Below, piece by piece: positions 9,567 through 20,310 of a DNA stretch of 64,000 nt (positions are counted from its first letter, which is position 1; each line of letters opens with the position of its first letter). The stretch is taken from the NCBI RefSeq assembly GCF_022201045.2, contig NC_068556.1, positions 1,528,001 to 1,592,000 on the forward strand, read 5' to 3'. The notes beneath the pieces were generated by a model, which saw only the letters and a list, made by a program, of their open reading frames with translations, had not been told where the DNA came from and did not search any database. Both the position numbers and the translations under genes were made by a program. The DNA is from Citrus sinensis. Taxonomy: Eukaryota > Streptophyta > Magnoliopsida > Sapindales > Rutaceae.

Positions 9567-10382
9567 CTAATTAGGAGGGCATATCGGTGCAGAGGAAAAA
9601 ACATAGAATGGAAACTCATCATCGAAAGCGTATTTAAAATGAACTCTCGAAAAGGGTATAATGTCTCTGCCTTGTAGCAATATACATTGGAAGCCGGATA
9701 TCGACATTTGAACGGGATCCGGCTTTTCAACCGTCTGAAATCCATCGCAATCCAACGTCACATTCCTTTGTGCACACTTGCACCAATTGAACACTTCCAC
9801 CGCGAACTCTTTCTTTCCTTGTACTATATTTCCTGTTTCCTTTTGACTTATGTCTAATGTCTCTGGAGGACAGGGCCCTTGCTCTGGCTGGCTCATCGCT
9901 GCCAGAAAAAATAAGATAAATAAAATTAGGAATATGTAATTAGGGCATCATCAGAACCAGGATTTTGGTTCAACAGAGGTGTTTAATCTTTACAGAGAAA
10001 TAACAAACCATAGTTAATTATAAGACAATTAATAAAATTTAAAAAAATTGGAAATCTAATGGACCAAACTGTAATTTTATGTAAAATATCAACAAAATTA
10101 ACCGCTACATAGTTCAGTCCTAAAAAAAAAATGTAACTATAAATAGTAAAAATAGTAGAGATATTACAGATTTTTTATTATACAATTGGTGAATCAAATT
10201 AACATAGTTTTCAAGTCACAGCAATTAGTGTTTACAGTATACGTAGTTTTTGAGTTATCGTTGTCTAATTTCAAAATCAAACGAGGCTTCAGAAGGAAAA
10301 GTAAGGTTTTAAATTACTTACTTTCGCTAATGAGAGCAAGAAACAAAGTTGCATAAAGGATCTTTTGAACGAGTACTGCCAT
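9567..10382 (-). CDS. TPD1-like small secreted cysteine-rich protein (copy 1)
   Basis: Exons on the minus strand are 10382-10322 (61 bp) and 9898-9567, GT-AG, giving 130 residues. Exon 1 encodes a signal peptide (MAVLVQKILYATLFLALISE). The mature part has six Cys and the signature of the TPD1/MAC1-like family: WCKCAQRNVTLDCDGFQTVE followed by DP and, near the end, a hydrophobic FKYAFDDEFPF block. TPD1 itself is the ligand of the EMS1 receptor kinase that sets anther tapetum fate. This subgroup, annotated in Arabidopsis under an old glycosyltransferase-like label (At4g32100-32110), has no firmly known role. It is expected to be secreted to the apoplast. The C-terminus ends PICPPN instead of the usual S-x-S-C ending. 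A homologous gene with the same two-exon layout lies 3.3 kb downstream on the same strand, so the pair is a tandem duplication. Confidence 0.82.
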
Positions 10383-13701: not shown

Positions 13702-14331
13702 TCAAGAACATGAGATTTGGGAAGAAATTGGCTTGAACGGGAACGAAGTATCCCAAGCATAATTGAAGCTGAGTGTTGTGAATCCATAGAAAGGATTTCC
13801 ATTGTTGACGACGGTGCATTCATCGCCGGATATCGCGATGATCGAAGGATCAATTGGTTCCACAGTCTGGAAACCCTTGCAGGATAATTTCAGCCCCAAT
13901 TGTGTGCAAATGCAGGTATTGTTCAGAGTCAGACGCCATTCCTGCTTGTTCGGCACTGTCTTTCCAGTTTGGGACTGGCTTACTTTAATATCATCTAGTG
14001 TGCACTGGCAATTGCCTGCACGGACGTAGTCAGAAATTTAGTCCCGACGGTGCAAGCTCAAAACATATATAATGCAAATGAAAAATTTTAGATATCAAAA
14101 CCCTAGAAGATAGAGAGAGAGCTATAGAGAATAAGTTGAACATAAGTTTTAATTAGAGTTAGAAAAATTAAGTGAAAAAATAAAATAAATAAATAAATAA
14201 AAGATTGCGATTGGCGATGAAAAATTACAAGCAAATATACGCATAGACAAGATTCTCAAGTGATGCTTTTTACCTTTGGTGATGATGGTGAAGAGCATAA
14301 TTGCAGCAAGAAATTTGAGTATGGCTGCCAT
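13702..14331 (-). CDS. TPD1-like small secreted cysteine-rich protein (copy 2)
   Basis: Minus-strand exons 14331-14274 (58 bp) and 14015-13702 join in frame to give 123 residues. Exon 1 is a signal peptide (MAAILKFLAAIMLFTIITK). The mature protein starts near GNCQCTLDDIKVSQSQTG and carries the family core LNNTCICTQLGLKLSCKGF, then QTVEPIDP, DECTV and a final FNYAWDTSFPF with ISCS, for seven Cys in all. This is the standard ending of TPD1-like proteins, so this copy looks closer to the family consensus than copy 1. It is predicted to be secreted; the receptor or partner is unknown for this subgroup. It has the same intron position and phase as the gene at 9567-10382. Confidence 0.87.
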
Positions 14332-15185
14332 TGGAGACAGATCAAAGCACGGCTATATATCTTGTTCTGTAAATTGCTGAGAGTGATTAAAAAGGTCTGT
14401 TGTTTATCTATAAATATCCATGTCGATGATGTAACAACTTGGTAAATGAAATCACCTTCGGATTCGATTTAATGGCTTAAAGATTAATTAACAGAAAAAG
14501 AATTATGAGCCATGCACAATCTTTTCATGAACGGTAACTCTATATGATAGATATTAAATGTATATACATTTACCATTAATGAGGATATGGACGGTGGCGT
14601 GATATTGTTAATGTTTCGGATTTCTTGAAAATAATTCCCATTTATGATTTATGATTTAAAATTTATATTTGTTTTCATTTATAAAAAACAAATTAAAAAA
14701 AAATTCGTATAAAATAACAATTTTTTTATTTTCCTTTTAGTTTTGGAGATGAATATAATGACAATTTAAGATAGCAATTACAGTGTATGTAACGTGGAAT
14801 TTCCTTTTTTTTTTTTTGGGGTCAAATAATCATCTTTCTTCTTTCAATAATAACAGAAATAATGCCTGGGTTGACATTTAAGAGGGCTACCAGAGCAGAT
14901 TTGCTACTAAATATGAAAATTGTAATAAATTCTCAATTGCCAAACATGATATGGAGACAAATTAGCATTAAAGAGGGGTATCACAGTAGATTTTTTTTTC
15001 TTTTTTTATCCCAAAAAAAAAAAGATGGAACGGTAAACCTCACCTTCTCTCTGTCTTTGTTCCATGGATGCGTTGGACATTGCCTTGGTCCTTATGCTTG
15101 AATAAACCCAAAAAAAAAAATGGTGATATTTTAATCAATTGGATGGTTGTAAGGACTTTTAAGTAATTAATACAATATGAAATTA
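14332..15185. other. Intergenic, upstream of TPD1-like copy 2
   Basis: This is AT-rich DNA with homopolymer runs (poly-T near 14805, poly-A near 15005 and 15110). No gene or delimited repeat is seen up to the Mutator-like element. The 9-bp target-site copy ATGAAATTA is at 15177-15185. Confidence 0.5.
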
Positions 15186-16950
15186 GGGCTCCCCTATGTT
15201 TCCACTGTTGTACCTTACCACAGCCTTTGTCTTTTGTGAATTAGTTAATGTAAAATTTCATTGAACCCCTTACACTCTATTTTATTTATAATTTATTCAT
15301 AAGTACTGAAAATACAAAATTATCCTCAAATTTTGTCTTCAATATTTTTTTTTTCAGTTTCTTCTTATGCTCTCTCACTTTCTCTCTATGATGGGTTTAA
15401 TGATGGCTTCAATATTGATCAAGGTTGCTGATCGATTTGAGGATAATTAGTTGTAGGTCATTGATTGTTTGTGTGATGGTTCTCGTGGTGGAAATTATAG
15501 GCATCAAAACAAAATCCTCAATTTGATCTGAGAAGCCGAAGTGAGAGCTAGAGAAAGCGAAATGGCGATGGCAAGGCGAGCTCAGACCTTCCTTATCTAG
15601 AGCGATTATGCGCTGCAGCTTCATATTGTGGCTTCGATGGATCTCTGATTTCCTCTTTTTGTCATGGTGTGGCTGTGGTGGAGCTGACGTGATGCTATTT
15701 CGAGAGAGGAAAGATAAGGCTGACATGGGTCCAGGCTGTCAGTTGTGGTGCGACTGTACTATCTTGCCGACGTGGAGCAGCGTGGTGATAAGCGGTAGCA
15801 GGCAGCTTCACACTGTGAGTATTTAGGTCGAGAGCAAACTGGAGAGAGAAGCCATGATGGTTTCTTTTGAATTTGATTTTGGATTGATTTCGTTTGGATG
15901 TCGCGTGTGTGGGTATTTGGGTTATTTTTTTTTAGTGTTTTTTTTTAATTATAAATTATGAATAGATCGATTTTGTAATAAACTAGACTGGAATCCCCAC
16001 TCGTATTGTTGAAATTTTTGTTGATGATGAGTTTTTTTTTTAAAAAAAAAAACCAACAAATACTTCAATTTCCATTAAAGATGGAAACTCTACTCAGTAT
16101 CAGTAACTGGGCACAAAATGGAAAATCTCACAAAAAACGAAATATATTTTATATTCCACAAGCTAAAACAAAGGTACCAAAACCAGTTGCATATCTTCTT
16201 TCAAATCACTAATGATCCAATTCCCAGGTAATTCAGAGGTAGAATATCTACTTGCTGCGCTTGGCTGCACGCCTCCCTTGGCCTTTCTTGGGAGGTCCCT
16301 TTCCACGACGTTTCAATATTTCAAGCTTGGATAAGCGCTCTTGCTCTTGGCGGGCCATGACGAGAGGATCATCTTTCTTGATGTCATATGAGTACCATCC
16401 AGCAACCTTGTCATCGATTAGCTTCTTCCGCAAAATCTTGTGGGGTGATCTCTGGCCAGTGAGGTTAAGTACATGCCCAAATATCTTAGCCCTCGCCTCG
16501 GTCAGCCCTGTGGTCACTATTGTGGCAAAAAATGTTCTTAAGCCTCCCTCATGTAGCCATCGTCACTCGCCAACTCTACCTGATTAGCTCTGTTGATGAT
16601 GAGTTAACTTTGTTAATGATCAGTGATGGGAGATGAGTTAATTTCTACAAAAAATTTAATGCTAATATAAGGATATTTTTGTCTTTTCATTAATATTAAT
16701 GTGTTATGATTATTAATGCAGTGTGGTTTAAAATAAAAACTCTTTTAATACTTATACAAAATAATAAATAAAAAAAGTGTAAGGTGATAAATTAAATTTT
16801 GATAATGTAGGTAAGTATAAAGTATTAAAATATTTTTTGATAAATTATAAATAAAATAGAGTACAAGAGGTTCAATGAAAGTTCACATTAATTAATTCAC
16901 AAAAGACAAAGACTGTGATAAGGTACGACAATTTCAGCGTAGGCGAACCC
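15186..16950. mobile_element. Non-autonomous Mutator-like (MULE) element
   Basis: The 1,765-bp element has terminal inverted repeats of roughly 110 bp. The left end starts GGGCTCCCCTATG and the right end is the complement of GGGTTCGCCTACG. Inside the arms CTTTGTCTTTTGTGAATTA and CTCTATTTTATTTATAATTT are shared. Flanks are the 9-bp target duplication ATGAAATTA (15177-15185) and ATGAAATTG (16951-16959), one mismatch, the length typical of MULEs. There is no transposase. The arms have diverged noticeably, so the element is not recent. The interior 15370-16018 is less AT-rich than its surroundings and may hold captured host sequence that I cannot name. The right half contains an mS33 retrocopy. 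Confidence 0.8.
16034..16590 (-). pseudogene. Processed pseudogene of mitochondrial ribosomal protein mS33, inside the MULE
   Basis: The coding remnant spans 16560-16248 on the minus strand. From TTGLTEARAKIFGHVLNLTG through the C-terminus (KRRGKGPPKKGQGRRAAKRSK without its last residues broken) it matches plant mS33 of the small mitoribosomal subunit. It is broken at the 5' end: codon 4 is TGA, and one extra base in a T run near codon 11 shifts the frame. It has no introns and carries apparent 5' and 3' UTR sequence. On the plus strand a T10 run, the complement of a poly(A) tail, abuts the left copy of a perfect 15-bp direct repeat TGTTGATGATGAGTT (16019-16033 and 16591-16605). These are the marks of LINE-type retroposition of an mRNA. 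An intact parent gene should lie elsewhere. Confidence 0.85.
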
Positions 16951-16959
16951 ATGAAATTG

Positions 16960-17673
16960 ATACTTTTTTGGGAGACGGGGTTAGGGAGATGAAAAGTGGG
17001 ATTTGAATAACCTTTCATATTTGGGTCAATTTATTGGTCCAGTGGTTTCAGCTCAATTATCAACGTATACCCCATGAGAAGGTCAGTATAGATATATATA
17101 TATATATATAATTTTTTATTTTTGGGTCAACCCACATTAGCACAGTCCGGCCTCACCTCCACTTCCAGGTCTCGGCGGGCTTTGCATTTGATAATCATAA
17201 TTATAGTGCCTAGTGGTGGAGACTGAATTTGATTCACCAAGCAAACAAGAGCAACTAATAAATAAATAAAATAAACCAACGAGGAGTGAATCGGGGACAA
17301 GATAAACATGCATAGAGCATACAAGATATCCATGTGAGCATCTGGCCTAATAAGTGATCGTACAATTGGTTTATTAAAGGTTTTATCTTTCATTTGTATT
17401 TCTTTACCATTGGTTCAAGTGAAGACTTTGCTTATTATTCTTACCTACTTTTGGCCCCACTTCCTTTATTTTATGACATTGAGTTTCAAAACATTGCATA
17501 CTTCACAATTCGAGCTCAACTGAGGAAGTTGGAACTTAATGAAAATTTATCTAAATCTTCTAATACAATCACTATGTAGTAGTTCGATAAATCTATCTGA
17601 ATATTAATAATATATCCTCTCACTTCTTACTTCACACAAGTGATTATAAAGCATTAAACCCGTCTTCAGTTGC
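16960..17673. other. Intergenic, upstream of the GH79 gene
   Basis: A TA microsatellite lies at about 17091-17110. I see no gene. The 150 bp before ATG 17674 is AT-rich leader-like sequence, and no promoter element could be assigned with confidence. Confidence 0.4.
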
Positions 17674-20310
17674 ATGGCTATAGGAGACACACTTACTGCA
17701 AAAAACAACTTTCTAAGAAATATGTGTTGTGTTTTCCTTCTTTCATTTCTGTGCTTCTGGCTTTTCTGGGCAGGTCACATCTCATTCAGGACAGCGTCCG
17801 GAAATGTTATTGAAGGCACTGTTTTCATTAATGGAACAGTTGCAATTGCAAAAACTGATGATAATTTCATTTGTGCTACTTTGGATTGGTGGCCTCCTGA
17901 TAAATGTGACTATGGCACTTGTAGCTGGGGCAGAGCTTCATTACTTAACCTAGTAAACTCTTATAGCTGCTGAATATAAATATCAATCTTTAAGCACAAC
18001 ACAGAATCTTAGTTTTCCCCCTTTTTTTACAGGATCTTGGCAACCCAATACTGTTAAAAGCTGTCAAAGGTAAGGACCAATCTGCATAAGCCTCAAAACA
18101 TGTTCAGAGTTTGTCATGCAACTTAGCTTTGATTGTATTTATTGTAGCTTTCTCACCATTAAAAATCAGAATGGGCGGGACATTACAGGATAAAGCTGTA
18201 TATGAGAGCAAAGGCATCGACGAACCTTGTACACCATTTGTTAAGAATAATTCAGAATTGTTTGGTTTTTCCGAAGGTTGCTTAACGATGCGTCGATGGG
18301 ATGAACTCAACATTTTCTTTAGACGAGCTGGGTAAATATTTTTATTTAGTTTAGCACCATAACAACGTTGTATTGCTTAAAACAGTATTATATTATTTAA
18401 AATGCGAAGAACTAATTAATGTCATTGCGTTAAATGTCATTGTACTCGATTCTGAAAACAGGGCTGTTGTCACGTTTGGATTAAATGCTCTAAGAGGTAG
18501 GATAATTCAATCGGATGGTTCTGCAAGGGGAGCTTGGGATTCCAGCAATGCTGAATCTCTTATGCGGTACACTGTCAACAAGGGCTACAAAATTTATGGC
18601 TGGGAGCTAGGTAAGATGCAAGATTTTAATTAGGAATATGCAGATACTAAGCCATAGGAATGACCAAAAATCTCATCACTAAGTGCTAAACAGGAAATGA
18701 ATTGAGTGGAAATGGGGTTGGAGCAAGAATTGGAGCAGATCAATATGCATCTGACGTAGATCGTCTCCAGAGCATTGTGCAAAACATTTACAAAGGCTTC
18801 AAAATCAAGCCACTAATCATAGCTCCTGGAGGATTCTTTGATGCAAATTGGTTCAAAGAATTCATAGATAAAACACCTAATTCTCTCCAAGTGGTCACAC
18901 ATCACATTTACAATCTTGGTCCAGGTAAATAATTAACACAATATTTCATTTATTTTTAATCAGTTTAGTTCATATGTAAGACTTTTCGAGTGGGGATATC
19001 TACACAGTGTAAAATCTAAATTTGACCCCATGTTGCTTTGTTTAGCGCTAATACGCCATTTTATAAAGCCAGATAAAAATTTCATTAGGTGCAAACGTCA
19101 ACACTAGGAGTCTCAATTCATATAACACTTACATGGTAATTCACCTTCGGTTTTTCTTGTAAATAGGTGTTGATGATCGCCTTATTGACAAGATCCTAGA
19201 TCCGTCATTTCTCAACAGTGGGTCGGAACCTTTTAGTAGCCTTCAAAGTATTCTCAGGAGCTCTGCAACTTCAGCAGTTGCATGGGTTGGTGAAGCGGGA
19301 GGAGCATACAACAGTGGCCACAATCTTGTCACAAACGCATTCGTGTTTAGTTTCTGGTAAGCTGTTTGTTTCCATAAAATTGTTTGGTTTATTTAAAAAA
19401 GTAAAATTTTGAATCCCAATTTTCCAAGTTTAACAGGTACTTGGATCAGCTAGGGATGGCATCAATTTATGGTACCAAAACATACTGCAGACAGACACTA
19501 ATTGGTGGAAATTATGGACTACTCAACACGAATACTTTTGTCCCAAATCCTGATTACTATAGGTAATTTTGGAATATGATAGATAATAACTTTATAACTC
19601 CACAATTACAAACAAATTTTTTCAATCGGTTCCAGTTGACTCAACTAATGAAACCTCTTTTAAGTTGTATAAGAAGAGGTTCAAAATTGAAATCCAACTC
19701 CATGCCTTTACCTTGTTACTATTGATTATTGTCTCTGCAGCGCTCTTCTGTGGCACCGGTTGATGGGAAGTAATGTCCTGTCAACAAGTCTTTCTGGGAC
19801 AACAAAAATACGTGCGTATGCCCACTGTTCAAAGCAATCTGTAAGCTAAATATCAAACGTTAATTCAGAGAAATTATTAGACCCCAGATTATTTATTGGT
19901 TTTAATTTTTGGTCTTGCAGCAAGGGACAACACTGCTATTGATTAACCTAGATGGTAACACTGCAGCCCGAGTTCGAGTTACAATTTCTAGGGAAAATCT
20001 TGCTGGTAATGGAGCTCTGGTAGTCCAACAAGAACAGCAAAATCAGAGAAAAAGATTTGCTAAGATATCTCAAGATACAAAAACCAATGGAAAAATGAGA
20101 GAGGAATACCATTTAACAGCCAGAGATGGAGATTTGCACAGCCAAACAATGCTTCTAAATGGGGAAATACTTGCAGTAAATTCATCTGAGGACTTTCCTC
20201 CTTTGGAACCTATATATGTTAGTGAGACGGCTCCAATTATAGTTGCTCCATTTTCTATAGTATTTGCCGAGATTCCCAGCTCTGTTCTTCCAGCATGTGC
20301 ACAGGTGTAG
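17674..20310 (+). CDS. Heparanase-like protein, glycoside hydrolase family 79
   Basis: There are nine exons: 17674-17952, 18033-18069, 18148-18331, 18462-18610, 18694-18924, 19167-19356, 19437-19562, 19741-19840 and 19921-20310. All introns are GT-AG with closing phases, giving 561 residues. An N-terminal hydrophobic segment (about residues 19-35) serves as signal peptide or anchor. The family core follows: TLDWWPPDKCDYG, LKIRMGGTLQD, VTFGLNALRG, then the acid/base Glu219 in WELGNEL and the nucleophile Glu336 in WVGEAGG. Plant GH79 enzymes are secreted or vacuolar beta-glucuronidases acting on glucuronic acid of arabinogalactan proteins or flavonoid glucuronides. The start could instead be a later in-frame Met (MCCVFLL). 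The gene is convergent with the cysteinyl-tRNA synthetase; the stop codons are 276 bp apart, so 3' UTRs may overlap. Confidence 0.93.

Follow-up and report, generated by a model that had tools for sequence, protein, structure and literature searches.

How a Mutator-like element (MULE) comes to carry the sequence of a host gene without its introns is the question raised by a locus of Citrus sinensis at which an antisense copy of the gene for the mitoribosomal protein mS33 lies between transposon ends. The window, i.e. the whole stretch of 64,000 nucleotides that was analysed, corresponds to C1:1528001-1592000, and the genome searched comprises 299.7 Mb in 11 contigs. An mS33 mRNA has very probably been retroposed into a non-autonomous MULE which contained a fragment of an acyl-CoA-binding-protein (ACBP) gene, the enlarged MULE then being mobilised to three loci.

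The Mutator-like element and its ACBP fragment

The enclosing element spans 15186-16950 (1,765 bp) and is Mutator-like, i.e. it has 120-bp terminal inverted repeats (TIRs) and a 9-bp target-site duplication (TSD). The left TIR (15186-15305) is 83% complementary to the right one (16831-16950) over 120 nt, and the two TSD copies, ATGAAATTA at 15177-15185 and ATGAAATTG at 16951-16959, are identical in eight of nine positions. The same agreement of 8/9 is found in a related element at C4:0.98 Mb, provided that its TIR begins with four Gs. Two further MULEs carry the mS33 insert: the one at C2:24.66 Mb is bordered by TTAAAAAGA and TTAAAAAAGA, which differ by one additional A, and the one at C1:16.20 Mb is without a clean 9-bp MULE TSD and displays only the shifted AAGATAAA. 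Domains of MULE transposases abound in the genome (150 matches scored out of 899 first-look candidates). In the C2:24.66 Mb copy the left TIR is interrupted by a 684-bp insert with the 8-bp repeat TGTTGTAC as its TSD, which from its ends we take to be hAT-like.

On either side of the element in the window lie a TPD1-like (tapetum determinant) frame at 13702-14037 on the minus strand and a glycosyl hydrolase 79 (heparanase-like) gene at 17650-20310 on the plus strand. Three of four pieces tried of the latter match PF03662, while piece 19906-20307 gave no match.

Between its TIRs the element contains 163 bp from exon 1 of an ACBP gene, consisting of 5'UTR and the first codons (15493-15655, plus strand), with 87% identity over 164 columns to C5:28866253-28866416. 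The joined exons of this gene on C5 match PF00887 with 9.2e-21. The fragment is found in all four elements (83-87%), including the insert-less one on C4, and its capture therefore predates the mS33 insertion. As it lies inside one exon, a genomic and a cDNA origin are indistinguishable. The initial annotation of this locus had taken it as a case of a host gene carried without transduplication; this applies to the mS33 part, which is spliced and tailed, and in view of the ACBP fragment it is established for mS33 only. A third captured fragment was considered at about 15663-15742, but its match to C2:28.555 Mb (80% over 80 columns) is too weak to name.

The mS33 copy and its parent gene

The genome search returned a single intron-bearing mS33 locus at C2:26356189-26356956 (C2:26.356 Mb), the structure of which was deduced, without annotation, from the 4,001-bp sequence of the parent locus. 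The 5'UTR exon ends with GAGCTAATCAG (397-407 of the locus sequence) and is followed by GTACAT. The first intron, of about 1.29 kb, is located in the 5'UTR and ends with TGTCAG, with GTAGAG next, and the second occupies 1934-2168 of the locus sequence. The spliced product of 103 amino acids matches Pfam MRP-S33 (3.6e-16) as well as mS33 in solved mitoribosomes (best match 8.5e-49), the best chains being those of 9evs and 6xyw, presumably both plant structures.

Positions 16034-16590 of the window are an antisense, spliced and polyadenylated copy of the mS33 mRNA. Its cDNA part (16042-16590, minus strand) reaches from the 3'UTR into the 5'UTR exon, of which the last 11 nt are retained and joined exactly to exons 2 and 3 (539 nt), and both parent introns are excised precisely at their GT/AG borders. 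Homology between parent and retrocopy ends at the splice sites and does not run into the introns. The match to the spliced parent, together with the TIRs and the 9-bp TSD described above, bears out the initial reading of an intronless antisense mS33 copy with UTR-like sequence inside a MULE.

The copy is bordered on both sides by the same 15-mer, TGTTGATGATGAGTT, which is exact at 16019-16033 and at 16591-16605 (15/15 bp), as had been noticed before. With up to two mismatches, TGTTGATGATGAGTT has three matches in the whole window, the third at 9613-9627, a number reached by none of 100 shuffles; under an assumed local base composition, this very 15-mer would be expected at a given position with a probability of about 1e-8. 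In the 4,001-bp parent locus no match to the 15-mer is found with up to three mismatches. Flanking 15-mers at the parent and homology extending into its introns would both have spoken against the retroposition into the MULE proposed at the outset; neither was found.

The T run is located at the proper end for the complement of a tail, again in agreement with the initial annotation. On the plus strand T10 occupies 16032-16041 and takes in the last two bases of the left 15-mer, so that the poly(A) remnant proper is T8 (16034-16041, tail on the minus strand). The corresponding runs, target bases included, are T13 in the C1:16.20 Mb copy and T12 in the C2:24.66 Mb copy, with AAACC next in both, and T10 followed by A11 is observed in the window copy only. 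In two of the three copies the A-run starts directly after ...GGTTT, at the point where the parent sequence goes on as TATGTTATGG, and in all three the A-tail reaches the target repeat. The window copy has an extra T8 between GGTTT and the tail; this block, A8 on the plus strand at 16042-16049, stands beside the T8 remnant, is unique to this copy and is unexplained.

A spliced and polyadenylated mS33 mRNA would thus have been reverse-transcribed, and its cDNA inserted probably by target-primed reverse transcription of the LINE type, the LINE machinery being putative. The consensus for such target-primed reverse transcription is TTTT/AA. The first nick may be placed at GAGTT/AACT on the plus strand, which conforms to TT/AA and is deduced from the right junction of this one site, and the T-ending 3' end of the nicked strand would have primed on the poly(A) tail. 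The receiving element would have been a non-autonomous MULE already in possession of the ACBP exon fragment, and 15 bp of MULE sequence would have been duplicated at the insertion. Reverse-transcribed mRNA is also able to enter breaks by end joining, and the mS33 cDNA could in that way have been filler or template in the repair of an excision gap or another break in the MULE. Such an origin is very improbable, since a perfect 15-bp TSD abutting the tail is not expected from end joining and, together with the GAGTT/AA junction, fits target-primed reverse transcription.

Carriers, insert-less relatives and divergence

A 587-bp query yields five matches in the genome, namely the window, two other copies and two exon pieces of the parent. 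C1:16203819-16204398 (93%) and C2:24661855-24662393 (83%) match the query from end to end, and the MULE arms also have matches at these loci. No retrocopy outside a MULE was returned by the genome search, which gave the parent and the three in-MULE copies only (four candidates scored). This bears on transduplication, by which a MULE would have taken up mS33 from genomic DNA through gap repair or aberrant excision, as in Pack-MULEs and Pack-TIR elements. The element is indeed a MULE with host-gene sequence and had a second host fragment already aboard. However, transduplication would require an intronless, tailed mS33 copy elsewhere, and the loss of both introns at the splice sites, the poly(A) at the mRNA end, the 15-bp TSD and the relatives without the insert described below render it extremely unlikely for mS33.

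Alignment of the three carriers shows that the insertion point, the 5' end and the MULE/mS33 junctions are identical in all of them. Both target repeats are exact in the window copy and one of the two is exact in each other carrier; likewise, the first 14 nt of the target are found unaltered in two places in the former and in one place in each of the latter, where the second copy is mutated. Eight stretches of outer flanking sequence, 585-700 bp long and taken from four loci, were compared with the low-complexity filter switched on and yield no match other than to themselves at E<=0.01. That one retrocopy occupies an identical site in elements whose outer flanks at the three loci are unrelated implies that the element moved after the insertion. 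The enlarged MULE would have been mobilised via its TIRs, presumably by a transposase acting in trans, to arrive at the three present loci. Segmental duplication of one locus, or independent retropositions into three MULEs, could be suspected because two of the three loci are on one contig (C1) and because the C1:16.20 Mb copy is without a clean 9-bp TSD. The dissimilar outer flanks and the shared junctions nevertheless speak against both forms of this explanation, as do the element-specific TSDs in two of the three carriers and the common insertion point and 5' end, so that its probability is next to nil.

The joined, insert-free element was compared with 27 loci, consisting of the three carriers, the parent and 23 others. 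Among these 23, only the element at C4:0.98 Mb aligns unbroken across the junction (74% over 1,273 columns), and the insert is absent from it. The 15-mer finds no match in this element even when three mismatches are allowed, and the target, AACAATGATGAGTC, is therefore placed by alignment alone. For the majority of the remaining loci the match is confined to the right side of the junction and is thus uninformative. Six loci with sequence near the junction were chosen by eye (C4:0.98, C3:40.49, C3:39.42, C7:5.24, C5:14.66 and C9:3.94); in the aligned stretches of 280-300 bp each of the six shows a single target region and no insert. TGTTGATGATGAGT is exact in C3:40.49, C7:5.24 and C5:14.66, and a further locus, C9:3.88, has it once, adjoining its MULE match. 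The five relatives other than C4 are without the AACTTTGTTAATGATCAG segment right of the target and have a short common stretch left of it, so that they display a single target, exact or nearly so, but not the exact empty junction. The initial annotation had named the empty site as a check, and this is answered in part: insert-less relatives with a single target exist, whereas no close copy retains a perfect empty site and the C4 target has diverged. The segment AACTTTGTTAATGATCAG itself (16606-16623) is an imperfect local repeat of the target region, which is present in the carriers, diverged in C4 and absent from the five distant relatives aligned. Junctions, splicing, insert-less relatives and flanks, taken together, lead to the rejection of transduplication as the source of mS33 and of both segmental duplication and independent insertions as the source of the three carriers.

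Pairwise K80 distances of the MULE backbone are 0.104, 0.097 and 0.095 between carriers, and 0.271, 0.257 and 0.256 between the carriers and C4. The inserts differ from the parent by 0.044 in the window (23/539), 0.040 at C1 (21/539) and 0.079 at C2 (37/497), and from each other by 0.064, 0.102 and 0.091. The insert-to-parent distances of the window and C1 copies are therefore about half of the carrier-to-carrier backbone distance; the C2 insert has diverged further than these two, and its faster rate is unexplained. Judged from these values, the mS33 insertion probably took place after the split from C4 and shortly before the spread. All three retrocopies differ from the parent at four common sites, which in the absence of an outgroup may be changes in the parent. 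On the order of the carriers the backbone sites conflict, 13 of them supporting window with C2, 12 window with C1 and seven C1 with C2; the corresponding numbers for the insert are one, zero and three.

The window copy is a pseudogene, its frame being interrupted by TGA at codon 4 and by an insertion of 1 nt, both of which precede its stop-free frame. The frame of the C2 copy is likewise disabled, by a stop and a 40-nt deletion, whereas that of the C1:16.20 Mb copy is intact and open for 103 codons with 11 amino-acid changes. Selection on this open frame was considered and is unsupported, dN (0.052) exceeding dS (0.029) with these 11 changes. In comparison with the parent, 13 of its 14 coding differences are located within the first 145 of 309 nt. 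The clustering has a P value of 0.0004 for a cut chosen post hoc, but the length of the longest stretch without differences is within expectation (P 0.08); the pattern may be due either to gene conversion by the parental locus or to chance. Since their spread the carrier copies would have drifted, apparently neutrally.

Comparison with other gene-carrying elements

Retroposition and subsequent hitchhiking on a transposon have thus made a mobile, Pack-MULE-like element by a combination of known mechanisms. A second way for such transposons to acquire host genes is thereby suggested. One and the same family has made two acquisitions, a gene fragment and then, by retroposition, a near-complete mRNA, and both have spread afterwards. 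Splice junctions, a tail, an inner TSD and insert-less relatives provide a practical test that separates the routes, and a filter against intronless captures can drop genuine mobile cases. It appears rather doubtful that DNA transposons in general serve as landing pads for retroposed sequence, in an overlooked process that supplies Pack-type elements and multiplies whole spliced genes as mobile retrogenes. If it were so, surveys that discard intronless captures would miss this supply, and the intact C1:16.20 Mb copy would be one of these mobile retrogenes. A possible precedent is offered by retrocopies in bat Helitrons. Among the literature matches listed, as far as titles and the first lines of abstracts go, there is no plain description of a retrocopy amplified inside a MULE.

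In a review, capture by DNA elements is equated with transduplication, with the addition that undiscovered mechanisms may remain and that the acquisition of host genes by DNA transposons is not fully settled (PMC13317346). An animal Pack-TIR survey dropped intronless captures of multi-exon parents (PMC8277862).

With the Pack-MULEs of rice and other plants the present element shares the non-autonomous TIR structure, the 9-bp TSD, the host-gene sequence between the TIRs (here mS33 and, as a second host fragment, the ACBP exon piece) and its multicopy state. Pack-MULE content, as characterised in PMC13317346 and PMC7565063, consists of transduplicated, unspliced gene fragments, whereas mS33 is present here as a spliced, tailed cDNA with a TSD of its own. 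The initial annotation regarded the locus as a Pack-MULE at first sight only; this is correct in so far as mS33 was retroposed, but the element occurs with its retrocopy at three loci and behaves like a Pack-MULE. The mS33 copy resembles a processed pseudogene, as portrayed in PMC7565063, in the missing introns, the poly(A), the TSD, the start in the 5'UTR and the frame decayed in two of three copies. Here, however, a DNA transposon was the site of insertion, and its transposition later multiplied the retrocopy.

Rice MULEs with the MITE Os0548 nested at one site, of which PMC3903597 gives 107 similar copies, are comparable in that an insertion at one site is common to many copies and a passenger is amplified with its host; there the passenger is a MITE, here it is the copy of a host mRNA. 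The human ARF6 retrogene in a MER20 DNA transposon likewise lies between transposon ends, and the authors leave open whether it arose by capture or by recurrent retroposition (PMC8277862). For the mS33 element, by contrast, the order of events is given by the splice junctions, the inner TSD, the insert-less relatives and the several carriers.
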